NCBI RefSeq assembly: GCF_005403045.1
Contig: NZ_BJCL01000009.1
Span: forward strand, 1-64,000
Length of the DNA stretch: 64,000 bases
Reading direction: 5' to 3'
Origin: Pseudaquabacterium pictum
GTDB lineage: Bacteria; Pseudomonadota; Gammaproteobacteria; Burkholderiales; Burkholderiaceae_C
In this document: piece by piece, positions 18,167-60,245 of the stretch
Numbering within the stretch: the stretch's first letter is position 1
Layout of the letters: the number at the start of each line of letters is the position of its first letter
Translations under genes and position numbers: made by a program
The notes under the pieces: generated by a model
What the model was told of the DNA's origin: nothing
Database searches by the model: none
The model's input: only the letters and a program-made list of their open reading frames with translations

Positions 18167-18255
18167 CGGGTACCTGGCCGACTCCATGTCCCCCGTCCTA
18201 CACGCCGCAAGCGGCGCATAGGACTCCGCCTCTACTTCCGTCGGCCAGGTACCCG
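18167..18255. repeat. 57-nt hairpin element inside a 16-bp palindromic stem, copy 1
   Basis: Outer arms CGGGTACCTGGCCGAC (18167-18182) and GTCGGCCAGGTACCCG (18240-18255) are a perfect 16-bp inverted repeat. They enclose a 57-nt core (18183-18239) that has its own hairpin built on GTCCTA-GCGCCGC and GCGGCG-TAGGAC. The core matches the one at 60171-60227 in 54 of 57 positions, in inverted orientation, but the arms of the two copies have unrelated sequences. The ACCCG at the end of the right arm abuts the prophage. Confidence 0.85.
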
Positions 18256-18272
18256 ACGTCCTGTAACGCGCC

Positions 18273-18307
18273 ACATGGTTTGAGGCATCACGTCAAATGG
18301 TTTGATG
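18273..18307. repeat. Left-end transposase-binding-type repeats
   Basis: ACATGGTTTGAG at 18273-18284 and the related AAATGGTTTGATG at 18295-18307 are 22 bp apart, about two helical turns. The first is the perfect inverse of the right-end motif at 59950-59961. Paired end sites of this kind are expected for MuA-type transposases. The inner copy also sits in a small dyad (GGCATCA to TGATGCC, 18284-18309). Confidence 0.7.
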
Positions 18308-18347
18308 CCCCAGACCAAGTGTCGCATTCGCACCGCCCTGGTGCGCC

Positions 18348-19034
18348 TCAGGTCTTGATGCAGTACAGCAGCGCCACGTTCCGCGGCCTGGTTTCCGAAC
18401 CTACCACTCCCGCGGCGTTCACCGGGCCGTCGTAGTCCGAACCGTCGTTCGTGTGGGGCCGCGGGTTGTTGGTGTCGCTGGCGCCGATGCCGTTGTAGAG
18501 GCTGGTCGCCGTCGTCCCGAACAGGGCCTGACCGTTCTCACCCTGGGGCACCACGTGCTTGTGATGCTGCACCTGCTGTGCCTGCGAAGACCCCAGCGCG
18601 CGGCCGGCGTCCACTCCACGCCCGCCGTCCAAGCCGCGGATGAACTCGCCCCGCAGATCGGGCAGGCGAAACGTCGTGCTGCCGTCGCCAGCACCGAACA
18701 CCACCCCGATCGCAGCGAACAACACCGGGTAGGCGGTGCGGCTGATCGTCGCCCCGTCGCAAACCAACCACCCGGTCGGTGCACTCGCGCGGGCAAACGC
18801 CTGCACGGCGCCGGCCGGAATCGAGGCGGCGATCAACGAGCGGATCGCCGTCAGCATCTGTGTGTTGTCGGCCTTGTTCAGCGCCGCGCCGGCCGAGGTA
18901 GCCACCGCCTCGATCTCCGCCTGAACCGCGTTCATCCAGTCGTCGGTCACCACGGTTGCCGGCGTCCCAACCGACGGGTCGCCCTCGGTGAAGTACCCAC
19001 CAGGCGCCGCTGCCGGCCCGTCAATTCGATGCAT
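18348..19034 (-). CDS. Phage tail collar/fibre protein
   Basis: The 228-residue protein contains a phage tail-collar domain: GAVQAFARASAPTGWLVCDG, then the FRLPDLRGEFIRG motif (about residues 105-130), and it ends with the typical ETRPRNVALLYCIKT. Such proteins form the distal tail-fibre or tail-tip receptor-binding part. AGGGGG lies just upstream of the ATG at 19034, which I prefer to an ATG 45 nt earlier. It is the last gene of the leftward late operon and lies next to the prophage end, the usual place for host-range genes in Mu-like phages. Confidence 0.88.
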   Translation of the reverse strand: MHRIDGPAAAPGGYFTEGDPSVGTPATVVTDDWMNAVQAEIEAVATSAGAALNKADNTQMLTAIRSLIAASIPAGAVQAFARASAPTGWLVCDGATISRTAYPVLFAAIGVVFGAGDGSTTFRLPDLRGEFIRGLDGGRGVDAGRALGSSQAQQVQHHKHVVPQGENGQALFGTTATSLYNGIGASDTNNPRPHTNDGSDYDGPVNAAGVVGSETRPRNVALLYCIKT

Positions 19035-19062
19035 GGTCAATCCCCCTTCAGTGCAGCCTGGA

Positions 19063-19686
19063 TCAGGCCGCGTAGGCAAACAGAACGCGGGTGTGGGCGG
19101 GCTTGTACCGGTTGAACTGGCACTCGATCACCTCGTTGCTCCACACCCGCAGCGGCTCCCCCACCGCCCCGGCACCCACGCGGAAAGGTGTCACTGCCAC
19201 AGTCGTCGGGATGTTCACGCGCCAGGTGTGCGCCCAGCCGTCGCCGGTGAACGAAATCCCCGCAGCCGTGGCCGCAGCGGCTGATGCGAACTCATCGATG
19301 GTGATGCTGTAGCCCAGGCGCGCCGCCAGCTCGATGAAGAACCGCCTCGACTGCCCTCCCACACTGGTGAGCCGCCCTTCAAGCGCCTGGCGCCGCTCGG
19401 CCACCGTCTGGCCCGTGGTGACGCACGGATCAGGCAAGCCGACCACGCGCTCCCAGTCGGGCAGAAGCTCCGTGGTGGTCGCCGGGTCGGTTTCGGCCAG
19501 CAGCTGTGCAGCCCGCATGTCCAGCCGCTCCAGCTCGGCAGCGAAGCTGCGCACCAGCTGCAGCAGGGCAGATGCCGGATCGCGCGGCCAGGCAGCGCCC
19601 GTTGGCAGCAGGCCCGCCAGCGCATCGCGGTACTCATCCTGGGTGTGTTGCACCAGGCCGTATTGCTGGCGCAGCTGCTGCAGCAT
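19063..19686 (-). CDS. YmfQ/DUF2313 baseplate-tail protein (Mu gp48-like)
   Basis: The 207-residue protein shows the DUF2313 pattern: LLPTGAAWPRD near the N-terminus, the acidic TELLPDWERVVGLPDPC segment and a beta-rich C-terminus. Mu gp48 belongs to this family and helps close the baseplate. I take the ATG at 19686, which has GGGAG upstream and aligns with family starts. The frame stays open for 28 more codons to an ATG at 19770 (MLDDYLYLVAPSGAYLVW...), which overlaps the preceding stop codon and could be a real extension. In Mu this gene directly follows gp47; here two genes are placed between them. Confidence 0.82.
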   Translation of the reverse strand: MLQQLRQQYGLVQHTQDEYRDALAGLLPTGAAWPRDPASALLQLVRSFAAELERLDMRAAQLLAETDPATTTELLPDWERVVGLPDPCVTTGQTVAERRQALEGRLTSVGGQSRRFFIELAARLGYSITIDEFASAAAATAAGISFTGDGWAHTWRVNIPTTVAVTPFRVGAGAVGEPLRVWSNEVIECQFNRYKPAHTRVLFAYAA

Positions 19687-19759
19687 CGAGGTCTCCCAGA
19701 TCAGGTAGGCGTCACGCCACACCAGGTAGGCCCCGGATGGCGCGACCAGGTAGAGGTAG

Positions 19760-20146
19760 TCATCCAGCATTGCCAGGCTTCAACGGCCAGTCGATCGACA
19801 ACGGGTAGCCAGGCTGGTCCGTGATGTCGCGCAGCGCCTGCCGGTACGTCTCCCAGGCTGCCCGTTGCTCAGCGGCCAGGGGCGCGTTCGGCAGCTGCGT
19901 CCAGTCGCTCGCCAGCAGCTGGTTTCGGCGCTTGTGGAGCACCAGGCGCTCGGCCGCTTCTTGAGCCACCTGGTCGGCATCCAGCCGCGGGACGAACTGC
20001 CCATCGACCAGCTGCAGCCCGTCGCCGTTGAAGTCAGGCTCCACCTCGACGAAGCTGACCCCTGGCATCGATGGCAGCTCGCCGTCGACGCTGTCGATGA
20101 CGAAGCGCACCACACCCGCCTGATCGCATGCTGCAACGCGGATCAC
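19760..20146 (-). CDS. Small tail-fibre-associated protein, possible fibre assembly chaperone
   Basis: The 128-residue protein begins at a GTG (20146-20144) whose last bases form the fibre gene's stop codon (GTGA overlap), indicating translational coupling. The C-terminal half contains LVLHKRRNQLLASDWTQLP and a WETYRQALRDI segment, a pattern common in phage proteins encoded right after tail-fibre genes and often annotated as tail-fibre assembly or XkdW-like proteins. No membrane segment or enzyme motif is visible. The family assignment is moderate. Confidence 0.65.
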   Translation of the reverse strand: MIRVAACDQAGVVRFVIDSVDGELPSMPGVSFVEVEPDFNGDGLQLVDGQFVPRLDADQVAQEAAERLVLHKRRNQLLASDWTQLPNAPLAAEQRAAWETYRQALRDITDQPGYPLSIDWPLKPGNAG

Positions 20147-22383
20147 TTCTTCGCTCCCAACGCCCACATGAAGGTGCGTCCACCGGTGGCCAACATCGTG
20201 CAGGGCGCACCATTGCAGGTGGCCGACATCGTGATCGTGACCGGACCAGAGGACGACGTGCTGCCCAGGTAGACCGCAAAGAGCCCGGTGCTGAGAATGC
20301 CGTTCTGCGAGATGGGGCCCTCCCTGACGTAGACCTGTGAGGAGCCCGCGAAGATCGCGATCGACACCGAGTCCGTGTCGATGTCCGCAAAGAAGGTGGC
20401 CTCGCACAGGATCAGCAACGGCGCGCCGCCGGTGGTGATCGACATGGCCATGATGGGCACCAGCCCGCCTTGGGTGAACCCAGCATTGCTGGCAAGCACC
20501 ACGCTCGACGTCACGGTGGCGGCGTTGTTCGCCAGCTTCTCGGTGATGACCGCCAGGTTGCCGATCTTCGCGGTACCGACGGTCAGGTCGCCGATGCGGG
20601 CAGCCGGCACTGCCAGCGTTGTCACCCCGTCGACCACGGCCACATCCAACAGCTGCGCTGGCGCCGCGTTCGGGTTGCCGGGCGGCACAAACAGCAGCCT
20701 GTCGGCCTGCAGGATGATCTCGCTCTGCCCGCCCGTGGCATCGTTCGGCGCGGTGGCCGCCAAGCCAATGGCACCGAACACCTTCTTGCCGTCACTGCGC
20801 GTTGCGCTGACCTTCAGCACTTGCTGTGCGGTCACCCCGTTGGGGCCGGCAATGGCTTGAGACAGGCTCTCGACTTCTGCGGTCAGCTCGCCTGTCGCTG
20901 CAACCGTCGCGCTGTAGTGGGATGCCGCTGCACTGGCTGATCCAGCCGCGTTCGATGCCGAGGCACTGGCACTGGCGGCCGAGTTCGAAGCCGCCGACGC
21001 TGACGAACCCGCCGAACCAGCTGCCGATGCCGCCACACCCGCTTGAGAGGTAGCAGTCGCCGCGCTGCTGCTCGCCGATGAGCTGGAGCTCGCCGCCTCG
21101 TTCCGAAAGGTGGCAGCCTCACTCGCCCTGGTGGCCGCTGTGTTGGCTGACGCGCTTGCCGCATTGGCCGAGGTGCTGGCGGCGGTCGCCGCGGTGGAAG
21201 CATTGCTGGCCGAAGTCGCCGCGGCGTTCGCACTGCCCAGCGCATTGCTCGCCGAGGTAGCTGCGGCGCTCGCAGAGGTGCTGGCGCTTGCTGCAGCTGA
21301 GGCAGCGTCACTGCTCGAGGTGGCTGCATTGCCCGCACTCACCGCTGCATTGCTGGCAGCAGTTTCTGCCGACAGCCTGGCGCTGTTGGCAGCGCTGGCA
21401 CTGTTGGCCGCCTGGGTGGCAGAGGCGGATGCATTGGATGCCGAGGTGCTGGCAGCACTGGCCGAGCCGGCCCCAGCTGCAGCCGCCGTGGCAGCCTCAG
21501 TCGCCTTTGTGCTGGCCGTGCTCGCCGAGCCAGCGGCAGATGTGGCCGAGCTGGCGGCGCTGGATGCGCCAGTGCTCGCTGAGCCCGCCGCCGTCTCGGC
21601 TGACAGCCTGGCGCTGTTTGCTGCCGTTGCCGCTGAGCCGGCTGCCGTTGCGGAGGTGCTGGCCGACTGAGCAGACTCGACGGCCGCTACCGCGGCGCCA
21701 GACGCCGTGCTTGCTGATGCCGCGGCAAGGCCGGCCTGGGTGCTGGCAGTGCTGGCCGATCCTGCCGCGCTGCTGGCCGACGTGGCTGCCGTGGTCGCGC
21801 TGGCGCTGGCAGCGCCAGCTGCCGTCTCCGCGGCCAGCTTGGCATCCTGGGTCAGCGTCACGCTCTCCAGCGCGTCACCAGCGCTCACGGCGGCGGCATT
21901 GCTGGCCATCAGCGCGTCAGCCGCTGCCGTGGCCGCATCGGCAGCTGCATCGGCTGCGGCGCTAGCACTGGCAGCGGCGGCCACCGTGTCGCCATAGGCA
22001 GCCTGCAGGTCATCCACGCGCGCCAGCAGGCCCGTGCCCGGCTGGTCGATCAGCTCAAGCAGCGCCACGATCGACGGGTCCAGGGCAGTCTCACCCAGCC
22101 GGCCCTCGAGCTCGGCCACCAGCGCGTCCACATCGGCCCAGGGCTGGCCCTCACCAATGCCGGTGAGGATTGCCTTCAGCCGGGCGCCTACGGTGCCCGG
22201 CGGGTAGTTGATCGCGATGTTGAAGCCCAGCAACCCGGCCGCGCGATCGGGCCGGGTGGTGTCCAGCAGGTCGGCGATGTAGGCCACCACATCGCGCCGC
22301 ACGGACACGGTCAGCTTCTGCAGCACTGGGTCTTCCAGCAGCTGCGCGCCGTCGCCCTCCGTCAGCCTGCGCACCACGGCCAT
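20143..22383 (-). CDS. Long tail fibre with Ala/Ser-rich repeat shaft
   Basis: The 746-residue protein has three parts. Residues 1-135 form a globular head (opening MAVVRRLTEGDGAQLL). Residues about 136-480 are almost entirely Ala, Ser and Thr with regular Asn/Gly, a low-complexity shaft. Residues about 490-746 form a globular tip with a DUF1983-like part (VSATRSDGKKVFGAIGLAAT) and a beta-rich end (FMWALGAKK). The shaft periodicity suggests a trimeric coiled or beta-stacked fibre. It lies 4 bp downstream of the baseplate J gene. Repeat shafts of this kind readily change length by recombination. Confidence 0.8.
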   Translation of the reverse strand: MAVVRRLTEGDGAQLLEDPVLQKLTVSVRRDVVAYIADLLDTTRPDRAAGLLGFNIAINYPPGTVGARLKAILTGIGEGQPWADVDALVAELEGRLGETALDPSIVALLELIDQPGTGLLARVDDLQAAYGDTVAAAASASAAADAAADAATAAADALMASNAAAVSAGDALESVTLTQDAKLAAETAAGAASASATTAATSASSAAGSASTASTQAGLAAASASTASGAAVAAVESAQSASTSATAAGSAATAANSARLSAETAAGSASTGASSAASSATSAAGSASTASTKATEAATAAAAGAGSASAASTSASNASASATQAANSASAANSARLSAETAASNAAVSAGNAATSSSDAASAAASASTSASAAATSASNALGSANAAATSASNASTAATAASTSANAASASANTAATRASEAATFRNEAASSSSSASSSAATATSQAGVAASAAGSAGSSASAASNSAASASASASNAAGSASAAASHYSATVAATGELTAEVESLSQAIAGPNGVTAQQVLKVSATRSDGKKVFGAIGLAATAPNDATGGQSEIILQADRLLFVPPGNPNAAPAQLLDVAVVDGVTTLAVPAARIGDLTVGTAKIGNLAVITEKLANNAATVTSSVVLASNAGFTQGGLVPIMAMSITTGGAPLLILCEATFFADIDTDSVSIAIFAGSSQVYVREGPISQNGILSTGLFAVYLGSTSSSGPVTITMSATCNGAPCTMLATGGRTFMWALGAKK

Positions 22384-22387
22384 CGCA

Positions 22388-23440
22388 TCAACTCCAGGTG
22401 ATGGTGCCCAGCACCGGCATCTGGCCAGCGCTGTGCGCCACGTCCGCAGTCGGCGTGGTCAGCACGCTGTTGGTCTCGCCGGCCGCCACGCTGATCGCCT
22501 CGCGCAGGTGGCTCAGCAGAATGGTGCCGCCGGGGTAGGCCTCGCGCTGCAGCACGTCGGCCAGCTCGGCCGTGACGGCATTGCGCACCGCCAGCGTGTT
22601 CGGGGTTAGCGTGATGGCCATGTCGAGCGGCAGCGCGGTTGGCGCCGCCACCGTCACCTGCGCGCACACCGGGCGGCGATCGTCGATGTAGGCCTGCACG
22701 GCTGCCACCTCGCCGCTGTCTGGAATCAGGCTGGCGTCGCCGTCGCGCACGAAGCGCACGGTCACCGTGCCGGGGCCGCCCTCGAGCGGGTAGCACCAGG
22801 CGCGCGTCACGCCCGGCACCTGCAGCGCCCAGGCCACGTAGTCGGCCTGCGCACCACCCATCGGCGCTTGCTGGATGCGGGCCAGTACACGCGCCCGCAG
22901 GGCGTCGTCGGTCTCGCGGTCTGCGCCGCCCACCAGGCCGCCGGCGCCAACGGCCGCCACGCTGGCCACACCGGCCAGCGGTTGCACAAAGCTCATCTGC
23001 GTGCCGGCCAGCGCGTTACCAGCTGCCCCCGACTCGACCGCAGCCACCGGCACCGAAGCCGTGCCCGATGCCAGCGTCACATCGACCGTCGAAACAAAGG
23101 CTGCTCCGTCACTGCGCAGCATCTGGGTGCCCGTGGGCACTACCACACCGCTGGTGCCTGTCACCGCCACCGGGCCCGAGGCGAAGGCGGCCGGCACCCG
23201 CAGCACACCCCAAATGCCGGCGTGCCGGTCCAGGAAGATCGTCTCGGCCGTGTCCACCAGCAGCTGCTGCGCCAGCCAGTCCAGGTAGCCATAGAGGCCG
23301 TGCACCCCGCCGGCATGCATGCGGGCCAGCACGGCCAGGTTGCTGCGGCGCAGCCGCGCATCGGTGCCAGGCAGGCCGGCCTCGATGTCGGCCGCCGCGC
23401 GGTCGATCAGGTCAGCTTGCGATGGGCGTGAGAAAGGCAT
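22388..23440 (-). CDS. Baseplate J-like protein (Mu gp47)
   Basis: The 350-residue protein matches the baseplate J family: FSRPSQADLIDRAAADIEAGLPG at the N-terminus and a middle segment with GADRETDDALRARVL and a GTVTVRFVRD strand. These proteins form the wedge of the contractile-tail baseplate. It directly follows gp46 on the minus strand (adjacent stop and start) and is followed by the fibre gene. The length agrees with Mu gp47 (about 360). Confidence 0.9.
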   Translation of the reverse strand: MPFSRPSQADLIDRAAADIEAGLPGTDARLRRSNLAVLARMHAGGVHGLYGYLDWLAQQLLVDTAETIFLDRHAGIWGVLRVPAAFASGPVAVTGTSGVVVPTGTQMLRSDGAAFVSTVDVTLASGTASVPVAAVESGAAGNALAGTQMSFVQPLAGVASVAAVGAGGLVGGADRETDDALRARVLARIQQAPMGGAQADYVAWALQVPGVTRAWCYPLEGGPGTVTVRFVRDGDASLIPDSGEVAAVQAYIDDRRPVCAQVTVAAPTALPLDMAITLTPNTLAVRNAVTAELADVLQREAYPGGTILLSHLREAISVAAGETNSVLTTPTADVAHSAGQMPVLGTITWS

Positions 23441-23884
23441 TCAAGCCCCCTTCCAGAAGGTTTCGAAGCGGAATCGGATCACCGGCGTCGCGCTGCGCGT
23501 GATGGTGACCAGCAGGCCCAGCACGCCCTGGCGCACCACCTCGGCCTGCACCGTAACGCTGCTGGCCACACCATCGTCCACCAGCCACTGCAGGGCCTCG
23601 CGGGCATACAGCTCAGCGCGTGCCAGCACAGCGGGCAGCTGCTTCTCACGGGCCAGCTGCCACAGCCTGCTGCCGATCTGGTCACCAGCCACCTCGGGGT
23701 AAGCGTCGCCCCACCAGCCACGGCGGGCAGTGGGCTCCACCGCGGTGTCGCCCTCGGCCGCGACGCGGTCGGTGAACAGGCTCAGCACCACGGCGGTCTC
23801 CAGCCCGTCGTCTTCTGCCAGGGACGGGCCGGCCACCAGCCAGTCGCCACCCAGGTCGCGCCATACGGTCCGCAGGTCGCTCAT
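23441..23884 (-). CDS. Baseplate protein GP46 (gpW/gp25-like family)
   Basis: This 147-residue protein starts at the ATG at 23884, overlapping the gp45 stop by ATGA. The segment DDGLETAVVLSLFTDRVA, followed by RRGWWGDAYPEV and a VTITRS beta region, is the Mu gp46 pattern, a baseplate wedge component related to T4 gp25. Gene order gp45-gp46-gp47 is exactly as in Mu. Confidence 0.88.
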   Translation of the reverse strand: MSDLRTVWRDLGGDWLVAGPSLAEDDGLETAVVLSLFTDRVAAEGDTAVEPTARRGWWGDAYPEVAGDQIGSRLWQLAREKQLPAVLARAELYAREALQWLVDDGVASSVTVQAEVVRQGVLGLLVTITRSATPVIRFRFETFWKGA

Positions 23885-24414
23885 ACAGGCACCCCGGTGT
23901 TGCCCACGCCGGTGTCCACACCGCCGTGGCGGTGGCCCACCAGGCTGATGCCGTCGGCCACCACATCCACGCCGGCCGTCACCGTGCCGGCCACCGTCAC
24001 GTCGCCCGTGCACTGCACCAGCGGCGTGTCCAGCACCACCTTGGTCGCCGCCGTCACTTCGATGGTGCCGCCTCGCTTGATCACGATCTTGTCGCCCTCG
24101 TCGGTGTAGATCGCCACCTCGCCCTGTTGCAGCGCGGTCAGCCGGTACCGGCGATCGTCCACCGCGATCACCAGTACGTGGTCCCGGTTGCCGGCCACGC
24201 TGGCCGCCACGGCCTCAGCGCCCGGCAGCGGGTGGCTGGTGAAGCCGTAGTTCTGGAAGCGCTCGACCTGGTCGCGCACCTCGTCGGCGAGCAGGCTAAC
24301 CTGCAGGCCCTGCAGCTTGCTGCCGTCGTTCACCAGCAGCACCACCGCGCGGCCGATCATCAGCTGCAGGCGCTGCAGCATTGGCCGCATCGCACGTTGA
24401 AGCGCGCCGCTCAT
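23881..24414 (-). CDS. Baseplate assembly protein V / tail spike (Mu gp45)
   Basis: The 177-residue protein has the gp45 layout: a helical start (MSGALQRAMRPMLQRLQLMI), an OB-fold (LVNDGSKLQGLQVSL), a triple-stranded beta region (GTIEVTAATKVVLDTPLVQC) and an apex with HRH (VGHRHGGVDTG) near residue 162. In Mu gp45 the apex HxH binds iron at the membrane-piercing tip, and the motif is conserved here. It overlaps the gp44 stop by ATGA. Confidence 0.9.
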   Translation of the reverse strand: MSGALQRAMRPMLQRLQLMIGRAVVLLVNDGSKLQGLQVSLLADEVRDQVERFQNYGFTSHPLPGAEAVAASVAGNRDHVLVIAVDDRRYRLTALQQGEVAIYTDEGDKIVIKRGGTIEVTAATKVVLDTPLVQCTGDVTVAGTVTAGVDVVADGISLVGHRHGGVDTGVGNTGVPV

Positions 24415-25484
24415 CGCCCATCCTTTGCCGGCAGCGTCCAGAATCCTGCTGAGCCAACTGCAGCCGCTTTCAGCGGCAGCGCCGTGTATGCGTCGGGCCG
24501 CGTGAGGCGCAAGGCGGTGGTGGTGCCTTGATCATCCAGCGAGTACAGAACGTTGGTGACCAGAAGATCGGCATCCAGCCGCAATGCCGTGGCAATCACG
24601 GACACCAGCGTGTTGGGCCGCCACAGACCTCCGGCGTGCCGCCATCCCTGCACCGTGAGCTCGACGTCCAGCGACCGCGCGGCCCGAACGTTGGCTTCCC
24701 ACTCGGCGCGTTGCGTGAGCGTGGCAGCCAGATCGGGCGCGTCATTGGTGATGATGAGCGGCCGGTACCGCTTCACGCCGGTGTCGCTGGCGAGGGCCTT
24801 GATCTGCGACGCGCTGGGCCCACTGAAGAAGTCATTGCCCGGCGCCTGGCCCTTGACGATGTAGCTGCTGAACCGGTCCCGCATGTCCAGGCCTACCCGC
24901 GCCTGCAGGATGTTCTCGCCCAGCACCAGCGGGGTTGGCACGCGCTGCGTGCCTGCGCGTGTGATGAGAAGCCCGCCGCGGCCGTCGCTCACCAGCAGCA
25001 GCGCGCGGATGCGTGCTGCACGCTCGATCGCTTCGAATGCCGTCTCGCCCTCCTGCAGCGCAAAGCTCGGCAGTGGCTTGCCGGTGTCCACATCCGCACG
25101 CACCGCAACACCGAACGGCGCGGCCAGTTCGGTCGCGATCTGCTCGATGCGCAGGCCCCGCCACTGTCCCGCCTTGCGCACGGCACTGCAGTCGACCAGG
25201 TCGCCAGTAGCGTCACGTCCGCTCAGCTCGACCTGGTGGCTGCCGGCGTCCATGCTCAGCCGCGTCTCATCAACCCAGCCGGTGATGACGGTCTCGCCGC
25301 CGATCAGCAGCTCGCACCGCTCGCCCGCAGGGATCGCCCAGTCCAGATCTTGGCCGATCCACCGCTCGCTCACCATCAAGCGGAACCCGCCAGCGCACTG
25401 ATCCATGCCCAGCCGAACCTGCACGCTTTGCCAGCCCGCATGACTGCGGCCACCAGCCAGCAGATCGATCTGACTCTCAACCAT
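24411..25484 (-). CDS. Baseplate hub protein (Mu gp44, P)
   Basis: The 357-residue protein resembles the gp44/gpP baseplate hub: LMVSERWIGQDLDWAI and ELLIGGETVITGWVDETR in the first domain, then LELSGRD-type motifs (here VELSGRDATGDLVDCSA) and LLITRAGTQR. The start at 25484 overlaps the end of the gp43 gene by 8 bp. Its place between gp43 and gp45 follows the Mu order. Confidence 0.87.
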   Translation of the reverse strand: MVESQIDLLAGGRSHAGWQSVQVRLGMDQCAGGFRLMVSERWIGQDLDWAIPAGERCELLIGGETVITGWVDETRLSMDAGSHQVELSGRDATGDLVDCSAVRKAGQWRGLRIEQIATELAAPFGVAVRADVDTGKPLPSFALQEGETAFEAIERAARIRALLLVSDGRGGLLITRAGTQRVPTPLVLGENILQARVGLDMRDRFSSYIVKGQAPGNDFFSGPSASQIKALASDTGVKRYRPLIITNDAPDLAATLTQRAEWEANVRAARSLDVELTVQGWRHAGGLWRPNTLVSVIATALRLDADLLVTNVLYSLDDQGTTTALRLTRPDAYTALPLKAAAVGSAGFWTLPAKDGR

Positions 25485-28985: not shown

Positions 28986-28986
28986 G

Positions 28987-49392: not shown

Positions 49393-49400
49393 TTGTGCTT

Positions 49401-49414: not shown

Positions 49415-49449
49415 ATGACCGCGGCGCCGCTGCTGGCCACCATGCCAGC

Positions 49450-49779: not shown

Positions 49780-49781
49780 GC

Positions 49782-50990: not shown

Positions 50991-51004
50991 CCCAGGCGCA
51001 TGCA

Positions 51005-51529: not shown

Positions 51530-51714
51530 CGGCGGCCGACATGCCAGACGGCGATTGCGGCGGTTGCGGTTCGACTGCCGCCGAGCGCCTGAAGAACAAG
51601 CCAGGCGAGACGCAAGAAGTGCGCGAGTGCCCGCACTGCTACTCGGACAAGTGCTGCATGTGCGACATGGGCGACGACGTCGAGTGCGGCAACTGCCCGG
51701 ACGAAGGCGAGTGA
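51526..51714 (+). CDS. Cysteine-rich mini-protein between terminase genes
   Basis: The 62-residue frame starts at a GTG overlapping the gp27 stop and ends in a GTGA overlap with the terminase start, so it is coupled on both sides. It contains CGGCG, CPHC, CCMCD and CGNC, ten cysteines likely forming zinc sites. No family is recognised; it does not resemble the Mu Com zinc finger beyond size. Confidence 0.6.
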   Translation: MTAADMPDGDCGGCGSTAAERLKNKPGETQEVRECPHCYSDKCCMCDMGDDVECGNCPDEGE

Positions 51715-53273: not shown

Positions 53274-53287
53274 CCGGAGCCTGACAC

Positions 53288-54937
53288 ATGGCCACCATCC
53301 TGGACCAGAACGGCCAGCCCATCCTGCAGGAGATCGCCAGCATCAAGCGGGACATCCACCGGGTGTTCTACGGCGGCATCCTGCAGCTCAACGAGGACGA
53401 CACGCTCAAGAGCCGTGGCGGCGGCAAGGGCCTGAAGATCTACGACGAGCTCAAGCGCGACGCCCATGCCGGCGCCGTGCTGGCCAAGCGCAAGCTGGCA
53501 GTGACCAGCCGGCCCTGGAAGGTGGAGCCCGCCAGCGAGAGCGCGATCGACAAGCAGGCGGCCGAGCTGGTGGAGAAGGCGCTGAAGCACCTGCGCTTCA
53601 ACCACCTGTGCAAGCGCCTGCTGGAGGCCACGCTCAAGGGCTACTCGGTGGCCGAGGTGCTGTGGGAGGTGCGCGACGGCTACGTGCTGCCGGCCCGGGT
53701 GATGGCGCGCGATGCGCGGCGCTTCGTCTTCGGCATCGACGACGAGCTGCGGCTGCTGACGCGCGAGAACATGGTGATGGGCGAGGCCATGCCGCCGCGC
53801 AAGTTCATCGTGCACCGCCGCGGGGCCGACGACGACAGCCCCTACGGCACGGGCCTGGGCGGCATGCTGTTCTGGCCGGTGTTCTTCAAGCGCAACGGCA
53901 TCACTTTCTGGCTGACCTTCGCCGACAAGTTCGGCAGCCCGACGGCGGTGGGCAAGTACCCCAACGGCAGCGACAAGGCCAGCCAGGCCAAGCTGCTGCA
54001 GGCGCTGAGCGCGATCGCGCAGGATGCAGGCGTGATCGTGCCCGACGGCATGGTGATCGAACTGCTGGAGGCCAGCCGCACCGGCAGTGTGGACACCTAC
54101 GAGAAGCTGGTCCGCTACATGGACGAGCAGATCAGCAAGGCCGTGCTCGGCGAGACCATGAGCACCACCGCCGCCGCGGCTGGCCTGGGCAGCAACCAGG
54201 CCGGCGTGCAGAACGATGTGCGGCTGGAGGTGGCCAAGGACGATGGCGACGAGCTCGACGAGACGCTGAGCGACAGCCTGGTGCGCTGGATCGTCGAGTA
54301 CAACCTGCCCGGCGCCGGCCTGCCGCGGCTGGAGCACTGCTTTGAAGAGCCCGAGGACCTGGCCAAGCGCGCCCAGCGCGACAAGACCATCACCGAGATG
54401 GGCTGGGAGCCGACCGAGGCCTACATGCTGGAGACCTATGGCGACGGCTGGGTGAAGAAGGCCCCGGCGCCCATGCCGCAGATGCTGCTGCCTGGCGCCG
54501 CCCCGGGCACCGACCCTGGTGCCGACCCGGCCGCCGTGCAGCCGATGGGCGACACCGCGGAGGACCCGGCCGCTGACCCGGCCGATGCCGCCTTTGCAGA
54601 TGGCGTGCCGCTGGGCAAGGCCGGCGCGCAGCGGGCATTCAACAAGGCCCGGCAGCAGGCCATCAGCGACGGCGCCGAAGCGCTGGCGGCCGAGTGGCAG
54701 GCGCTGGTGCGCAAGCCGGTGGAAGACGTGCTGGCGCTGGCCGAGGCCAGCGGCGGCGACCTGGTGCAGTTCCGCGAGCGGCTGACGACGCTGCTGGACG
54801 CGAAGCCCGACCCGGAGGTGGTGCAGCGATTCGCTCAAGCCGCCTTCGCAGCCAATGTCATGGGGCGCGGGCTGGCGCCGAAGAAGACCTGGGGCCAGAA
54901 GCTGGCCGACCTGGTGAAACGACGCACGAGGACCTGA
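53288..54937 (+). CDS. Portal protein (DUF935, Mu gp29)
   Basis: The 549-residue protein matches DUF935: QEIASIKRDIHRVFYGGILQ, LKIYDELKRDAHAGAVLAKR, GYSVAEVLWEVRDGY and the clip/stem region VIELLEASRTGSVDTYEKLV. Portals form the dodecameric DNA channel at one capsid vertex. The last 120 residues are Pro/Ala-rich and helical. It shares a TGATG stop-start with the next gene. Confidence 0.92.
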   Translation: MATILDQNGQPILQEIASIKRDIHRVFYGGILQLNEDDTLKSRGGGKGLKIYDELKRDAHAGAVLAKRKLAVTSRPWKVEPASESAIDKQAAELVEKALKHLRFNHLCKRLLEATLKGYSVAEVLWEVRDGYVLPARVMARDARRFVFGIDDELRLLTRENMVMGEAMPPRKFIVHRRGADDDSPYGTGLGGMLFWPVFFKRNGITFWLTFADKFGSPTAVGKYPNGSDKASQAKLLQALSAIAQDAGVIVPDGMVIELLEASRTGSVDTYEKLVRYMDEQISKAVLGETMSTTAAAAGLGSNQAGVQNDVRLEVAKDDGDELDETLSDSLVRWIVEYNLPGAGLPRLEHCFEEPEDLAKRAQRDKTITEMGWEPTEAYMLETYGDGWVKKAPAPMPQMLLPGAAPGTDPGADPAAVQPMGDTAEDPAADPADAAFADGVPLGKAGAQRAFNKARQQAISDGAEALAAEWQALVRKPVEDVLALAEASGGDLVQFRERLTTLLDAKPDPEVVQRFAQAAFAANVMGRGLAPKKTWGQKLADLVKRRTRT

Positions 54938-55476
54938 TGAACGACGCACAGATCGAGACTGAGATCCAGGCCAAGGGCCTGACCGCTCCACGCATCACGC
55001 CAGCCGACCTTGAAGCCAACATCGTCAGCGAGCACTACTTCACCGCTGGTGATGGAGTGGTTGGCGTGCTGGCCGTCGCCGACGCACAGGGCAAGCAGCT
55101 CGGCGACAAGGTGCAGCTTCGCGCTGCGGAGATCCCCGACGAGCTGGATCTGCTGACCTTCTGCGTACTCATCCTGCGCAACGGCTTCACGGTTACCGGC
55201 GAATCGGCCTGTGCCAGCCCCGAGAACTTCGACGCCGAGATGGGTCGCAAGATTGCCAGGGCGAATGCCATCAACAAGATGTGGCCGTTGATGGGCTACG
55301 CCCTCAAGAACCGGCTGGCTGGGCCAACCGATGAGCAGGTGGGCCGCTTTCTGACCTGGCCAGTGCCGGCCGACGTGTACCCGGACGGCACGCCTGGCCA
55401 GCCAGGGCGCACCGGCACCAACCTCATGTCGGCGCCGCAGGCCAAGGCCATGCTGCAGTACGTCCTGGGCGGCTGA
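54937..55476 (+). CDS. N4 gp49/Sf6 gp66-family protein (cargo between portal and gpF)
   Basis: The 179-residue protein contains ANIVSEHYFTAGDGVVGV, LDLLTFCVLILRNGFTVTGE, SPENFDAEMGRKIARANAIN and MWPLMGYALKNRL, the Pfam family named after N4 gp49 and Sf6 gene 66, of unknown function. Such genes are usually in early or middle regions, so its place between portal and gpF is unusual. Start and stop are coupled to the portal gene. Confidence 0.8.
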   Translation: MNDAQIETEIQAKGLTAPRITPADLEANIVSEHYFTAGDGVVGVLAVADAQGKQLGDKVQLRAAEIPDELDLLTFCVLILRNGFTVTGESACASPENFDAEMGRKIARANAINKMWPLMGYALKNRLAGPTDEQVGRFLTWPVPADVYPDGTPGQPGRTGTNLMSAPQAKAMLQYVLGG

Positions 55477-55501
55477 TCCCATCGTCACAGGTGAGGCCAG
55501 C

Positions 55502-56041
55502 ATGAGCACACAACCCGTCGTCACTGGCCGCCTTGCGATCGTCAGCGAGTGCAAGCGATTCCGCTATGTGCTCGGCCGTCGCTGGGGCGCCGGTCAGCCG
55601 TTGCTGTTCGTCATGCTCAACCCCAGCACTGCGGATGACAAGAAGGACGATCCGACCATCCGCCGGTGCATTGCCTTTGCGCATGCGCACGGATTCCCGG
55701 CCTTCGAGGTGGTGAACCTGTTCGCCTTCCGAACGCCCAAGCCGGCCGCGCTCAAGCAGGCCGGGTGGCCGGTAGGTCCGCACAACGACACCCAGATCGC
55801 GGAGGCCGCTTCAAACGCGGCGGCCATTTGCCTGGCCTGGGGCGCCCAAGCAGGCCACGCGCGTGCTGAAGCGAGAGTGCAGGAGGTGCTGCCGTAGCTG
55901 CGCCGCGCTGGCAAGCCGCTGATGTGCTTACGCATCACCGCCAGCGGCCACCCTGAGCATCCGCTGATGCTGCCCAGCGTGTGCCGGCTGACAGAGTTCA
56001 CTGACGAGGCGATCGACGCGGCCATGAGAGGTGAAGCATGA
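55502..56041 (+). pseudogene. DUF1643 protein gene interrupted by in-frame amber codon
   Basis: Residues 1-131 match DUF1643 (FVMLNPSTADDKKDDPTIRR, VVNLFAFRTPKP, ICLAWGAQAGH). A TAG at 55895-55897 ends the frame, but without any shift the same frame continues for 48 codons (LRRAGKPLMCLRITASGHPEHPLML) to a TGA at 56039-56041. The continuation contains the family's C-terminal GKPL-C-L...GHP-HPL motif. One base change such as CAG to TAG explains it. It could be a recent pseudogene, a sequencing error or, less likely, a readthrough product. Confidence 0.8.
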
Positions 56042-56526
56042 CCATCCCTGCAAGCGCATTGACCGCCATCTATCAGGGCCTGGCCCAGCTGCCAGCCGCG
56101 ATGGACAGCGAGCCCGCCCGCATCATGCTGCTGGCCATCGGCCTGCAGGAGAGCGGCCTGACCGCCCGGGTCCAGATCGTGGACGGCGGCGGGCAGGGGC
56201 CAGCGCGTGGCCTGTGGCAATTCGAGCGTGGCGGTGGCTGCGCTGGCGTGCTGCGCCACAGCGCCAGCCGCTACTGGATGCACAGCGTCTGCGCTGCCCG
56301 GGGTGTGCAGCCGACGCCAGCCGCGCTGTGGTCGGCGCTGGCCACCGATGACGCGCTGGCCGCTGCCGCCGCCCGCCTGCTGCTGTTCACCGACCCGCGC
56401 CGACTGCCCGAGCTGGGAGACGAGGCAGGCGCGTGGGCGCTGTACCTGCGGGTGTGGCGCCCTGGCAAACCGCACATCGACCGCTGGCCAGCCAACTACG
56501 AGCGCGCCGTGGGCGTGGCAGCCTGA
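56038..56526 (+). CDS. Lysozyme-like endolysin/transglycosylase
   Basis: The 162-residue protein has LLAIGLQESGLTARVQIVDG with a candidate catalytic glutamate at residue 38, followed by GPARGLWQFERGGG and a C-terminal segment (AWALYLRVWRPGKPHIDRW). This is the arrangement of small lysozyme-like phage muramidases. It lacks a signal peptide, so it would need the holin. It overlaps the interrupted DUF1643 frame by ATGA and precedes a membrane protein gene. Confidence 0.75.
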   Translation: MTIPASALTAIYQGLAQLPAAMDSEPARIMLLAIGLQESGLTARVQIVDGGGQGPARGLWQFERGGGCAGVLRHSASRYWMHSVCAARGVQPTPAALWSALATDDALAAAAARLLLFTDPRRLPELGDEAGAWALYLRVWRPGKPHIDRWPANYERAVGVAA

Positions 56527-56786
56527 TGTTCGAGACCAACTCAGCCTGGCTGCTCTTCTGGTTCGATGCGTTCCAGTGGGTCTTCCCTGCCTTCATCTGG
56601 GGCGCGACGACGCTGGCTGTGCTTGGCGTGTGGATCTGCATCGTGCATGTTGCACGGCTCGCCCTGCTGCGCACGCTGGAGGTGGTGGTGATCGTGGAGG
56701 CTGCGCGCGAGGCGAAGCGGCAGGGTCGCTCACCCATCCTGCGCGCATGGACCAGGCTGGATCGAAGGTGGGGCAATGGCAGCTGA
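56526..56786 (+). CDS. Small membrane protein next to endolysin
   Basis: The 86-residue protein has one long or two short hydrophobic segments (WLLFWFDAFQWVFPAF, IWGATTLAVLGVWICIVHVA) and a basic cytoplasmic tail (AREAKRQGRSPILRAW). Its place beside the endolysin gene suggests a holin, antiholin or spanin-like role. It shares a base with the endolysin stop and overlaps gpF by 11 bp. Confidence 0.6.
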   Translation: MFETNSAWLLFWFDAFQWVFPAFIWGATTLAVLGVWICIVHVARLALLRTLEVVVIVEAAREAKRQGRSPILRAWTRLDRRWGNGS

Positions 56787-57549
56787 AGCCCGCTTCGACC
56801 TGGAGCCACGCAAGGCCCTGGAGTTCTTCCGCGGCAAGGGATACGCCACCGGCTTCGCATGGCAGGACGTCTGGCAGTACCAGCACGACGAGGCCTTCAC
56901 CGTGGCCAAGATGATGCAGGTGGATCTGCTGAAGGACGTGCGCGCCGCCGTCGACAAGGCGATCGCCAGTGGCCAGACGCTGGATCAGTTCCGCGACGAG
57001 CTGAAGCCGCGCTTGCTGGAGGCCGGCTGGTGGGGCAAGGCCGACATGACCGACCCGGTCACCGGCGAAACCCGCACCGTGCAGCTGGGCAGCCCGCGCC
57101 GCCTGCGCGTGATCTTCGAGACCAACATGCAGACGGCCTACGCCGCCGGCCACTGGGCGCAGATCCAGCAGACGAAGACCGACGCGCCGTACCTCATGTA
57201 CGACGCGGTCAACGACGCCAACACCCGCCCCGAGCACGCCGCCTGGGACGGCCTGGTGCTGCGTGCCGATGACCCGTGGTGGCAGACCCACTACCCGCCC
57301 AACGACTGGGGCTGCCGGTGCGGGGTGATCCAGCTCAGCGCCGACCAGGCGGCCGGCATGGGCAAGGCCGAGCCCGACAGTGCCCCGCCCATGCAGATGC
57401 GCGAGTACACCAACCCCCGCACCGGTGAGGTTGAGCAGGTGCCCAAGGGCGTGGGCCCGGGCTGGGCCTACGCGCCGGGTTCAAGCCGGGTGGAGCTGCT
57501 GCGCGAGCAGCTGGCCACGAAGCAGAAGGAGTTCCGCGATGGCCGGTGA
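56776..57549 (+). CDS. Minor head protein gpF (Mu gp30, MuF domain), short form
   Basis: The 257-residue protein contains the MuF domain: LRVIFETNMQTAYAAGHWAQ, APYLMYDAVNDANTRPEHAA, VLRADDPWWQTHYPPNDWGC and RCGVIQLS. Mu gpF is about 430 residues, so this version lacks roughly the first or last third. The N-terminus (FDLEPRKALEFFRGKGYAT) looks complete. It sits inside the capsid near the portal. It overlaps gpG by 11 bp. Confidence 0.88.
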   Translation: MAAEARFDLEPRKALEFFRGKGYATGFAWQDVWQYQHDEAFTVAKMMQVDLLKDVRAAVDKAIASGQTLDQFRDELKPRLLEAGWWGKADMTDPVTGETRTVQLGSPRRLRVIFETNMQTAYAAGHWAQIQQTKTDAPYLMYDAVNDANTRPEHAAWDGLVLRADDPWWQTHYPPNDWGCRCGVIQLSADQAAGMGKAEPDSAPPMQMREYTNPRTGEVEQVPKGVGPGWAYAPGSSRVELLREQLATKQKEFRDGR

Positions 57550-58138
57550 TGTGACAGTCAAGATCGACGACGCGCGGGTGAAGGCCGCGCTCGATCGGGT
57601 GCGCCTGGCGCTGCCGCTGGGCGGGCAGATGCTGCCCCTGATGCAGAACATCGGCCGGGTGCTGAGGACCGGCGCGCAGCTGCGGTTCAGGTCGACAACC
57701 GGGCCAGATGGCAAGGCGTGGGAGAAGAGCTTCCGCGCCAAGACCGAGGGCGGCCAGACCCTGAGCCTGACGCGGCGCCTGCGCAACAGCATCACCACCG
57801 AGGCCACGAACACCAGCGTGGCGGTGGGCACCAACGTGCTGTACGCGGCGGTCCATCAGTTCGGTGGCGTCATCAGGGCCAAGAAAGGTCCGTTCCTCTC
57901 CATCCCGGTGACGCCAGCGGCCCGCGCCGCCGGCAGCCCGCGCAACATGCAGGGCCTGCACGTGGCGCAGACGCTCAAGGGCCAGTTCATCCTGGTCGAC
58001 GAGAAGGGCATCACGCAGTTCTTGCTGCGCCAGCAGGTGACCATCCCGGCCCGCCCATTCCTGGGGGCCAGCGAGGCCGACAACACCGAGATGGTGTCGG
58101 CCGGCGCGCGCTTCTTCAACTCACGGTGGAGCGGCTGA
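57539..58138 (+). CDS. Phage virion morphogenesis protein (Mu gpG)
   Basis: The 199-residue protein matches the gpG/virion morphogenesis family: RVLRTGAQLRFRSTTGPDGK, AWEKSFRAKTEGGQTLSLTR, VLYAAVHQFGGVI and the C-terminal IPARPFLG. It completes tails or joins heads and tails. In Mu the protease gene follows; here the block stops and the protease lies 20 kb away on the other strand. Confidence 0.88.
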   Translation: MAGDVTVKIDDARVKAALDRVRLALPLGGQMLPLMQNIGRVLRTGAQLRFRSTTGPDGKAWEKSFRAKTEGGQTLSLTRRLRNSITTEATNTSVAVGTNVLYAAVHQFGGVIRAKKGPFLSIPVTPAARAAGSPRNMQGLHVAQTLKGQFILVDEKGITQFLLRQQVTIPARPFLGASEADNTEMVSAGARFFNSRWSG

Positions 58139-58204
58139 CCGTGCTGCAACGCCACAGCATCAGCAGGAGGCCGGCGCCCAACCCTGAACCGTAGAACAGG
58201 GCGA

Positions 58205-58234
58205 CCGGTGAGGGTGTTGGAGCACCCGCACCGG
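58205..58234. repeat. Long hairpin upstream of the adenine methylase gene
   Basis: CCGGTG-A-GGGTG and CACCC-G-CACCGG form an 11-bp stem with one bulged pair around a 6-nt loop, in the 173-bp gap before the methylase. No T-tract follows. It could terminate or regulate translation of the methylase; nothing else is evident in the gap. Confidence 0.5.
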
Positions 58235-58311
58235 CCGCCTCCCCGCAGCGTGAGTGCGGATCAGCCAAGGCCCTGACACCGTCGCGACGGCAGGGCGAAT
58301 GATGAACCGCA

Positions 58312-59085
58312 ATGGCCCAACCTCTCATCCCGTGGATAGGTGGCAAGCGCCGCCTCGCAGACCGTCTTCTTCCCCTGCTCGCTGACCACGAGCACAGCTG
58401 CTACGTCGAGCCCTTCTGCGGCGCGGCAGCCCTGTTCTTTTTCAGAGAGCACCGCTGCAAGGTCGAGGTGCTCAACGACATCAACGGCGACCTGGTCAAC
58501 CTCTACCGGGTGGTGCAGCACCACCTCGAGGAGTTCGTCCGGCAGTTCAAGTGGGCGTTGAGCAGCCGCCAGCTCTACGAGTGGGCCAAGCTCAGCCAGC
58601 CCGACACGCTGACCGACATCCAGAAGGCCGCCCGGTTCTTCTACCTGCAGAAGCTGGGCTTCGGCGGCAAGGTGCAGGGCAGGACCTTCGGCACCGCCAC
58701 CACGGCGCCGGCCAGGCTGAACCTGCTGCGGCTGGAGGAGGATCTGAGCGACGTGCACCTGCGCCTGAACGGCGTGTTCGTCGAGCACCAGCCCTGGGAC
58801 GTGTGCGTGGCTCGGTACGACCGGGCGCACACCATGTTCTTCATGGACCCGCCCTACTGGGGGACCGAGGGCTACGGCGTGGACTTCGGCCTTCAGCAGT
58901 ACGACCGCATGGCGGAGCTGATGCGGTCGATGAAGGGCAAGGCGCTGGTGACGGTGAACGACGTGCCGGAGATGCGGCAGGCCTTTGCCGGGCTAACGAT
59001 GCAGCGGGTGTCCATCACCTACACGGTGGCGGCCAACCCGGGCGATCGCAAGGCCACCGGTGAGCTGATCATCCGCAACTGGTGA
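58312..59085 (+). CDS. DNA adenine methyltransferase (Dam/D12 class)
   Basis: The 257-residue protein has the D12 class motifs: PLIPWIGGKRRLADRLLPLL at the N-terminus (SAM site), YVEPFCGAAALFFF, EVLNDINGDLVNLYR and the catalytic DPPY at residues 179-182. It methylates adenine N6, probably in a short palindrome such as GATC, though specificity cannot be read. In Mu the right-end cargo is the DNA-modification gene mom; this gene takes that place and may protect phage DNA from restriction. Confidence 0.92.
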   Translation: MAQPLIPWIGGKRRLADRLLPLLADHEHSCYVEPFCGAAALFFFREHRCKVEVLNDINGDLVNLYRVVQHHLEEFVRQFKWALSSRQLYEWAKLSQPDTLTDIQKAARFFYLQKLGFGGKVQGRTFGTATTAPARLNLLRLEEDLSDVHLRLNGVFVEHQPWDVCVARYDRAHTMFFMDPPYWGTEGYGVDFGLQQYDRMAELMRSMKGKALVTVNDVPEMRQAFAGLTMQRVSITYTVAANPGDRKATGELIIRNW

Positions 59086-59145
59086 TGGTTTCCGACTGGG
59101 GTGGTCTGGCACCTGCAGAACTGCTTCACTTCTGGTGCAGGCAGA

Positions 59146-59164
59146 GCGACGCTGGAGGCGTCGC
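59146..59164. terminator. Hairpin after the methylase gene
   Basis: GCGACGC and GCGTCGC form a 7-bp stem with a 5-nt loop between the methylase stop and the last phage gene. There is no T-tract, so termination is uncertain. Confidence 0.35.
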
Positions 59165-59187
59165 AACCCACCACCAGGACCACCGCC

Positions 59188-59553
59188 ATGACGCAAGCAG
59201 CCACCCCCACCACCCGCAACGAAGGCTGGGGCTTCTGGGGCACGATGACCGACCGCGCCGCGGCCGCCTGGCCGCTGGCGGTGGCCTCGATCAGCGCCGC
59301 CACGGGCGAAGACGCGGAGGCAGCAGCCACCTTCCTGGACAGCCGCCACGGCCGGCACTTTGCCGACGAGCTGCTCAACCAGCTGGGCGAAGGCGGCGAC
59401 CTGGCCGGCGCGATCGAGCGCACCACCAGCCGGTTCATGGCCTGGAAGATCGGCCGCGCGACCAGTCTGCGCACCGGCATTCCGCGCGGCTTGCCCTACC
59501 TGCTCGGCCACGTCATCAACGAGCAGGTCAACGCCGAGGCCGTCGCCGCCTGA
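59188..59553 (+). CDS. Right-end cargo protein of unknown function
   Basis: The 121-residue protein (GWGFWGTMTDRAAAAWPLAV; DAEAAATFLDSRHGRHFADE; LGHVINEQVNAEA) resembles a small plasmid- and island-borne family that I know only as hypothetical. The ATG at 59188 is preceded by ACCAGGACCACC. It is the last gene before the right end, where Mu-like phages often carry accessory genes. No motif gives a function. Confidence 0.65.
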   Translation: MTQAATPTTRNEGWGFWGTMTDRAAAAWPLAVASISAATGEDAEAAATFLDSRHGRHFADELLNQLGEGGDLAGAIERTTSRFMAWKIGRATSLRTGIPRGLPYLLGHVINEQVNAEAVAA

Positions 59554-59698
59554 TCAGCCAGCACCGCCCCGACCGGGGCCTGCAGTCGGCCGGATTTCAG
59601 GCCCTGCAGGCCCTTTTCCCTTCTGGTTGGGGCGCTGGTACCGGCGGGTGGACGATCGAGGCGCCTGGGCCGTTCTGGTGGGTCGGCTTTCCGGCTGG

Positions 59699-59856
59699 AA
59701 GTGTTGCGCAGCGCAACACTTCGCGCGCCAGTTCGGCTTTTCGGCCTGGTCAGGGCTTGGCCCGGGTCTTCATAGGAGGAGCGGGCCAGAAAGGGCTGCA
59801 GAACGGCGCAACACTTCGCGCTCCACTTCTGCAACACTTCGGAGCGCAACACTTCG
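59699..59856. repeat. Noncoding cluster of GCAACACTTCG repeats near the right end
   Basis: GCAACACTTCG occurs four times, at 59713, 59808, 59831 and 59846, and the first copy is part of a perfect palindrome (AAGTGTTGCGC, A, GCGCAACACTT; 59699-59721). The last 11 bp of the prophage read on the minus strand (GCAACAGTTCG, 59977-59967) differ from the unit at one position. The whole 59554-59966 stretch has no convincing gene. Confidence 0.75.
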
Positions 59857-59918
59857 GCGCCTTCCAACCTGCCTTGCGGCCCGTTCTCCCCGGTGAAGAG
59901 GGTAGATTGAAGGGCCCG

Positions 59919-59978
59919 CAAACCATGCGCCAACCTTGCCGGCCGATCCCTCAAACCATGTGTCGGCGAACTGTTGCA
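59919..59978. repeat. Right prophage end with transposase-binding-type repeats
   Basis: CTCAAACCATGT at 59950-59961 is the perfect inverse of the left-end ACATGGTTTGAG, and GCAAACCATGCG at 59919-59930 is a second, weaker copy 33 bp further in (three helical turns). The end itself is at about 59977-59978, next to ACCCG. Confidence 0.7.
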
Positions 59979-60152
59979 CCCGTTTTCGGGCCAGATCCCG
60001 CTAAGTCATTGATTTTGCGGGCCATCCCAGCCGTTCCGACCCATTCCCGCCCCTTCCCACCTCTCCCCCAGACCACCTGCGGGTTCACACGTCCTCGTCC
60101 AACCACCACTTCCGCACGCGGCGCCGGCCTCGGTGGTGGTGGAGCGTCGGGG

Positions 60153-60245
60153 CGGGTGGGCCTGTTTTGCGGAAGTGCAGGAGGAGTCCTATGCGCCGCT
60201 TGCGGCGTGTAGGACGGGGGACATGGAGCAAAACAGGCCCACCCG
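60153..60245. repeat. 57-nt hairpin element inside an 18-bp palindromic stem, copy 2
   Basis: Arms CGGGTGGGCCTGTTTTGC (60153-60170) and GCAAAACAGGCCCACCCG (60228-60245) pair perfectly over 18 bp around a 57-nt core (60171-60227). The core equals the reverse complement of 18183-18239 except at three positions. The arms share no sequence with those of copy 1 beyond the outermost CGGGT. It lies in the gap between the prophage and the glutaminase gene. The rest of 59979-60295 holds only a small dyad (CCCGC...GCGGG, 59997-60021). Confidence 0.85.

Follow-up and report, generated by a model that had tools for sequence, protein, structure and literature searches.

A palindromic hairpin family with a nearly fixed internal loop between free helices in Burkholderiales

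We analysed a 64,000-nucleotide stretch of the Pseudaquabacterium pictum genome (assembly GCF_005403045.1, contig NZ_BJCL01000009.1, positions 1 to 64,000 of the forward strand; hereafter the window), which carries two hairpins with almost the same core set in arms of unlike sequence. They belong to a hairpin family that is real, widespread in Burkholderiales and apparently undescribed. We think it rather probable that this is a new family of palindromic elements of the order, resembling repetitive extragenic palindromes (REPs) and Rickettsia palindromic elements (RPEs) and recognised as a folded single strand by a putative protein. The family is a natural experiment, with many arm sequences around one loop and compensatory change at a fixed site.

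Loop, helices and the selected strand

The core at 18183-18239 was compared with the reverse complement of the core at 60171-60227, and the two were identical at 54 of 57 positions, with mismatches at 18228, 18232 and 18233. The arms of hairpin A (18167-18182 with 18240-18255) form 16 perfect Watson-Crick pairs, and those of hairpin B (60153-60170 with 60228-60245) form 18. An earlier note on this DNA, which had described inverted cores matching at 54/57 positions inside perfect 16- or 18-bp inverted repeats with arms that differ between copies, was thus exact on recount for the cores and confirmed for the arms. The 30-nt inner hairpin was found twice in the window at up to three mismatches and never in 100 shuffles, and each strand of each copy folded with z-scores of -7.4 to -8.9 relative to shuffled sequence.

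The wider sample consisted of 160 distinct hairpins from 44 genomes, extracted with loop patterns that contain no arm sequence; some loci of the genus came via full-element BLAST and others via the loop patterns (below, G numbers are sampled genomes, with G000 the window's own, C numbers are contigs and L numbers are extracted loci). The unit is a hairpin of about 70 to 125 nt, made of an outer helix (P1; median length 28 bp), an asymmetric internal loop and an inner helix (P2), both helices being free in sequence. The commonest internal loop reads CGCAGGTAAAGGAGGA on the 5' side and GGGGGACACGGAG on the 3' side. Over 20 arm positions, with G.T counted as paired, a mean of 96.5% was paired in 159 hairpins (one being dropped at a contig end), compared with 52.6% when arms were re-paired between genomes and 67.4% when they were re-paired between hairpins of one genome. 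The earlier note had asked whether the flanks always pair, and all 159 hairpins with complete arms did so, at 70-100%. A covariation set was formed from 27 of the 35 available hairpins with a 15-nt inner hairpin, eight rows from G581 being left out. In this set, 97.0% of cells were paired, all 20 P1 pairs varied on both sides, and the covariation score was 0.805, versus 0.193 after shuffling and at most 0.131 after sliding.

Covariation was also seen within the loop. R5 of the 5' strand and Y9 of the 3' strand, for which the search pattern admits four combinations, occurred as G-C 102 times, A-T 53 times, G-T five times and A-C never. Positions 13/3 were A.G in 146 hairpins, C.G in eight, G.A in four (from four genomes) and A.A in two, and positions 12/4 were G.G in 153, A-T in six (G222 only) and A.G in one; the pattern restricts the possible loop letters, so that such counts understate the variety. 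This suggests a folded loop with non-standard pairs. Two loci of another genus (L044 and L055, G025) contain a variant hairpin in which each loop strand is lengthened by additional nucleotides (GGAGTGAAGTAAAGGAGGA / GGGGGACATGAACGGAG). An inverted partner lay within 300 bp of 74 of 140 hairpins, by the strict or the loose pattern. Pairing, covariation and compensation at a fixed site (see below) strongly support the second alternative of the earlier note, in which arms are rewritten while pairing is kept, implying a selected structure.

The pairs that depart from Watson-Crick rules were counted on the purine-loop (sense) strand. P1 contained, unfiltered, 210 G.T, 12 A.C and 98 other pairs, and with one hairpin taken per genome (44) the counts were 61, 7 and 24. 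For P2, whose register was chosen for maximal pairing, they were 79, 4 and 74. A strand-blind process should yield G.T and A.C equally, which is far from the observed 210 versus 12. We examined the transcription context of 119 hairpins using a crude gene caller. Among 43 hairpins between tandem genes, 21 were antisense (18 genomes; G.T 31, A.C 0) and 22 sense (G.T 18, A.C 1); inside genes, three were antisense (G.T 7, A.C 0) and 11 sense (G.T 16, A.C 6). Genes were called on both sides of 72 intergenic hairpins, of which 26 lay between convergent genes and three between divergent ones. Because the G.T bias ignores the transcription of the neighbours, and antisense hairpins keep it, the selected molecule is the purine-loop strand and not the neighbouring mRNA. 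Judged from these pair counts, selection acts on one folded strand, putatively single-stranded DNA or else a transcript that the adjoining genes do not produce. The wobble bias names the selected strand without expression data.

One element and one prophage in the window

The features of the window that concern the element are as follows.

18113..18261, minus strand: left half of the element, with a degenerate terminal repeat (GGACTCGAAGCGG on the plus strand) and hairpin A, ending at the target repeat; 18113-18262 corresponds to positions 1-150 of the composite full-element query (98%)
18167..18182, no strand: outer arm 1 of hairpin A (P1, 16 bp, perfect), from arm pairing
18183..18239, minus strand: core of hairpin A, the purine-loop (sense) strand being minus, from core comparison and search
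18195..18224, minus strand: inner hairpin P2 of hairpin A, from repeat search and fold z-scores
18240..18255, no strand: outer arm 2 of hairpin A (P1), from arm pairing
18257..18261, no strand: target repeat CGTCC, left copy, 5 bp, from the junction reading
18262..60089, no strand: Mu-like prophage of 41,828 bp with ends TGTAAC...TTCACA, within the linker between hairpins A and B, from junctions and Mu domains
39467..41812, plus strand: MuA-like transposase of the prophage (PF09299, PF02316)
60090..60094, no strand: target repeat CGTCC, right copy, 5 bp, from the junction reading
60090..60286, plus strand: right half of the element, with the linker, hairpin B and the terminal repeat CGCAACGAGCCC; 60089-60286 corresponds to positions 144-341 of the composite full-element query (84%)
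60153..60170, no strand: outer arm 1 of hairpin B (P1, 18 bp, perfect), from arm pairing
60171..60227, plus strand: core of hairpin B, sense strand plus, from core comparison and search
60186..60215, plus strand: inner hairpin P2 of hairpin B, from repeat search and fold z-scores
60228..60245, no strand: outer arm 2 of hairpin B (P1), from arm pairing

The prophage junctions read CGTCC|TGTAAC at 18261/18262 and TTCACA|CGTCC at 60089/60090, so that a 5-bp repeat bounds 41,828 bp, and Pfam matches within it included Mu-transpos_C, HTH_Tnp_Mu_1, Portal_Mu, Phage_Mu_F, Phage_Mu_Gp48 and tail collar. When the flanks were joined, 324 of the resulting 402 bp aligned without a break (89%) to an intact element on contig C7, spanning the junction. 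In intact elements elsewhere, a terminal repeat is followed by hairpin A in reverse, the linker, hairpin B and again a terminal repeat. Since the joined flanks and the intact elements show the same order, both unlike arm types belong to one inverted pair. The window hairpins are two halves of one inverted-pair element cut by a Mu-like prophage, and not independent copies; one element and one insertion explain the layout. The earlier note had reasoned that, if ACCCG were the prophage target site, prophage removal would place copy 1 directly before TTTT, as a terminator of the oxidoreductase gene. The target repeat is instead CGTCC and the joined flanks give CGTCCTCGTCC after copy 1, so this terminator fails. 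The possibility that both copies lie in one ancestral region, which the note had held against its own reading, applies in part in the window, whose hairpins are halves of one element; the covariation in the wider sample is independent of this pair. The prophage also contains a D12-class adenine DNA methyltransferase gene (58312-59085, plus strand). A glutaminase gene (60296-62140, minus strand) adjoins the element, and its product has a C-terminal cyclic-nucleotide-binding domain and a weak, below-cut-off STAS match.

A search of the window's genome with the 57-nt core, as proposed in the earlier note, gave 37 matches, 27 of them with E <= 3.8e-13, and related genomes showed the wide spread in Burkholderiales described below. 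Two of the 27 strong matches are both strands of one chimeric palindrome on C33 that unites type A and type B halves; this locus (L097, G000:C33:11943-12126) consists of two right halves, one of each type, fused at the inner hairpin and is probably a recombination product. Elements of this genome carry terminal inverted repeats (GGGCTCGTTGCGG), and the end motif CCGCWWMGAGCCC occurred 46 times, versus once for a reversed-pattern control. Shorter versions (73-127 bp) that lack the big hairpins are also present. No autonomous transposon with GGGCTCG ends was noticed at the 46 end-motif places, at which no protein search was made. At 10 contig ends (C16, C34 twice, C20, C39, C35, C21, C15, C14 and C6), the loop is interrupted by the ends of apparently one insertion sequence, a putative IS110 member by the look of its protein ends, Pfam having given nothing on two short fragments. 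Members of the IS110 family are known to target REPs, according to text in PMC1525189.

Range, fixed sites and copies inside genes

The loop string was present in records of an uncultured Aquabacterium and of a Burkholderiaceae. With full-element BLAST, 17 of 60 genomes were matched, own included; some of the weakest matches were coding sequence, and the three weak ones in G014, G018 and G019 were rejected because, within the output listed, they are coding and do not show the fold. A pattern of both loop strands with a free spacer was found in 12 of 21 genomes of the genus, own included, and its reversed control gave two matches in two genomes. One of the nine genomes of the genus without the pattern, G007, has a diverged copy by BLAST. 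Order-wide, the same pattern matched five of 399 genomes, own included: G222, from another family, and G358 show the fold, and the matches in G272 and G117, which have no matching hairpin, were counted as chance. A longer pattern matched 32 of 200 genomes of the family (28 of 141 genera, own included) with zero control matches, and a looser one matched G222 at 29 places, a few or more of which overlap. No description of the hairpin family was found in the titles and abstract starts of open-access PMC text, and a full-text search with loop strings returned two unrelated papers.

Change at a fixed site could be followed at a pccB-pccA-like locus (names that rest on our reading of the flanks), where a hairpin is common to G358, G546, G451 and G573. 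These represent four genera, and their neighbourhoods of 1.7-3 kb align at 80-84%. Among the 23 innermost P1 pairs, five had changed on both sides and three on one side, each to G.T or T.G, and none was broken. The purine-loop strand is antisense to both genes. At another orthologous site, the window's genome and G002 carry the element, G020, whose convergent genes abut, does not, and G006 has some 50 bp of different sequence there. Two more sites were compared in five alignments (G020, G016 and G012; G004 and G012), which showed neither the element nor a readable junction. The site comparison shows gain or loss of the element without a clean boundary. As to whether empty sites are plain hairpins, which the earlier note had asked, element-free sites were found, and none had a clean junction.

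The family also enters protein genes. Open-frame hairpins were found in Mur ligase genes of six genomes (G534, G454, G583, G456, G527 and, twice, G573), and others in frame in the genes for a proline dehydrogenase (G465), an HrpA-like helicase (G531) and a CobB-like protein (G534). In G573, two hairpins of the same orientation lie within one Mur ligase gene (L241, 964-1183). When three of the proteins (Mur ligase, PutA and HrpA) were compared with solved structures, the additional residues of each fell between stretches that matched, as insertions, and Mycetohabitans HrpA lacks 44 residues at the position of the hairpin insert. The encoded peptide AQVKEEPA(T/K)RAGDTEQS is shared by two Mur ligases and HrpA, and a different frame is used in proline dehydrogenase. 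In four aligned Mur ligases, the insert follows the same residues, SARLGG, and is sense in G534 and G456 and antisense in G454 and G583. Both orientations at one site would be accounted for if the arms had recombined with each other and so inverted the insert. Genes such as that for Mur ligase thus tolerate in-frame palindromes. L239, L224, L231 and L169 were flagged as in-gene by the crude caller and are not claimed, the hairpin of L239 preceding the recognised domain.

Proposed recognition and competing explanations

The explanation that we favour is that of a mobile palindromic family recognised by its fold. Hairpin units are often arranged in inverted pairs, with terminal repeats in the window's genome, and one pair was later split by the Mu-like prophage. 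A protein would read the folded purine-loop strand by loop and shape rather than by arm sequence; the recognised molecule would most likely be single-stranded DNA, and recognition would both spread the element and hold the fold under selection. Several results weigh against this. No helper protein was found. None of 12 own sites had an adjacent direct repeat of at least two bases that could be a target-site duplication, and no clean empty site was found, since some 28 bp of flanking sequence are missing from G020 as well. Mismatches of kinds other than G.T and A.C are frequent in P1 (98). They exceed the G.T pairs of P1 in the genome of the window (G.T 8, A.C 0, other 16), so that the copies there are decaying. 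The ratio is weaker for in-gene sense hairpins (16:6), three of the A.C pairs coming from one hairpin, L182. Any host role is not essential, because nine of 21 genomes of the genus lack the pattern. The compensation at the pccB-pccA-like site goes beyond what would be expected if selection acted at transposition only, and it suggests that the hairpin has a role where it sits. RNA and single-stranded DNA fit the data equally well. A broader formulation, which we regard as possible but below even chances, is a new class of strand-specific nucleic-acid device under host-level selection in place: a nearly fixed loop of about 29 nt between arbitrary helices would be read by a putative protein widespread in Burkholderiales, either as folded single-stranded DNA or in a transcript of the opposite strand, and would spread between and inside genes.

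The G.U-tolerant covariation, the compensation within an operon and the scarcity of copies between divergent genes (3/72) would also be expected if the hairpin acted as a host RNA in mRNA stability, processing or attenuation, and if selection on the transcript maintained it site by site. We consider this unlikely, since hairpins between tandem genes show no preferred orientation (22 sense, 21 antisense) and the bias persists in the antisense ones (G.T 31, A.C 0), which would need an antisense or pervasive transcript. Moreover, Rfam gave zero gathering-score matches at the window hairpins. Below threshold, the surroundings of copy 2 (E <= 10) matched long-hairpin miRNA models, SNORD17 and scr4677 (9.2 bits), and in 20 loci (E <= 0.5) some of the hairpins matched miRNA models, the matches to CcsR1 and IRES_Bip lying outside the hairpins. 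Mutation could keep the arms paired if template switching rewrote one arm from the other. This would produce perfect arms without function and agrees with Mur-ligase-site copies that stay paired despite diverged arms. Symmetric mutation, however, predicts as many G.T as A.C pairs, and it leaves the nearly fixed loop and the loop covariation unexplained; template switching alone was rejected on the G.T/A.C ratio, and we hold this explanation to be improbable. Least credible, to the point of being very improbable, are intrinsic or bidirectional terminators with an inserted core. Their convergent and downstream positions (26/72 convergent) would suit them, but copies lie in frame inside genes, and on neither strand did any of 161 hairpins have TTTT just outside the stem. 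The background rate, taken from random 12-mers of these loci, was 0.6%, which indicates no enrichment and not avoidance. Intrinsic terminators with an inserted core were ruled out by the absent T runs. With them goes the first alternative of the earlier note, insertion of the core into pre-existing terminator loops; in addition, orthologous arms evolve in place.

A further candidate is the REP-associated transposase (RAYT). If a RAYT-like HUH protein, encoded between dgt-like and gltB-like genes (two loci tested), mobilised the hairpins as REP/REPIN elements, it would fit that such a gene is present in 21 of 21 genomes of the genus, and that inverted dimers and a strand-specific fold resemble REPs as portrayed in parts of PMC8266576 and PMC3733652. 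We judge this quite unlikely. The catalytic HxH motif is lost from the protein of the window's genome (TEVLLLL) and of G006 (NQVLLLL), yet both genomes carry many copies; all nine aligned RAYTs keep both histidines, as do other genomes of the genus. Nine of the 21 genomes have the gene but no pattern match, and the constant GTAG/CGTC tag was not seen. Fifteen distinct Y1/RAYT-like genes were scanned in 19 loci, mostly with 0.5-1.5 kb of flanking sequence, and no hairpin was found. The earlier note's suggestion of a RAYT helper therefore stands as to the presence of a RAYT-like gene, which here lacks the catalytic HxH, with no hairpin near 15 such genes. Of 17 motif genomes, 14 had a match to PF01797, whose absences are unsafe because it missed the window's own RAYT-like gene, which was later found by alignment. 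The two genes without HxH (L306, 1534-2211, plus strand, G000:C15:90233-90910; and L307, from G006) are still open and conserved, which suggests a non-catalytic role for their predicted products.

Integron attC sites offer a parallel in which one folded strand is recognised by structure and stem sequence varies freely; the hairpins resemble them in recognition of a fold with free stems and differ in layout and loop. By analogy, the family is best read as a probable case of REP- or attC-like strand-specific fold recognition, but not as REP by the features tested. As in the REP, REPIN and BIME elements described in portions of PMC2817692, PMC8266576 and PMC3733652, the units are palindromic with strand-specific features, form inverted dimers, lie between tandem or convergent genes and keep complementary changes. 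In contrast to REPs, the unit measures about 70-125 nt instead of 20-40, places a nearly fixed internal loop between helices that are both free in sequence and has no constant GTAG/CGTC tag in the loop forms of 160 hairpins. RAYTs are described in a passage of PMC2817692 as always REP-flanked, whereas no hairpin lies beside the RAYT-like genes scanned here and the window's own RAYT lacks HxH. RPEs (about 150 bp) are likewise palindromes in frame within protein genes, according to a part of PMC10969869, but they occur in other bacteria; the present hairpins are mostly intergenic, combine a conserved internal loop with covarying helices and show both core orientations at one gene site. Miniature inverted-repeat transposable elements are similarly small and repeated, with terminal inverted repeats as in the window's genome. 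The family differs from them in that it has no target repeat, no transposase with such ends was noticed, and other genera have single hairpins or other ends. REP-like elements would be extended to Burkholderiales with a different recognition logic, and the family offers a direct route to fish for the recognising protein. Elsewhere in the window, an SAH riboswitch (9329-9429, minus strand, 60 bits) was the sole Rfam gathering-score match.

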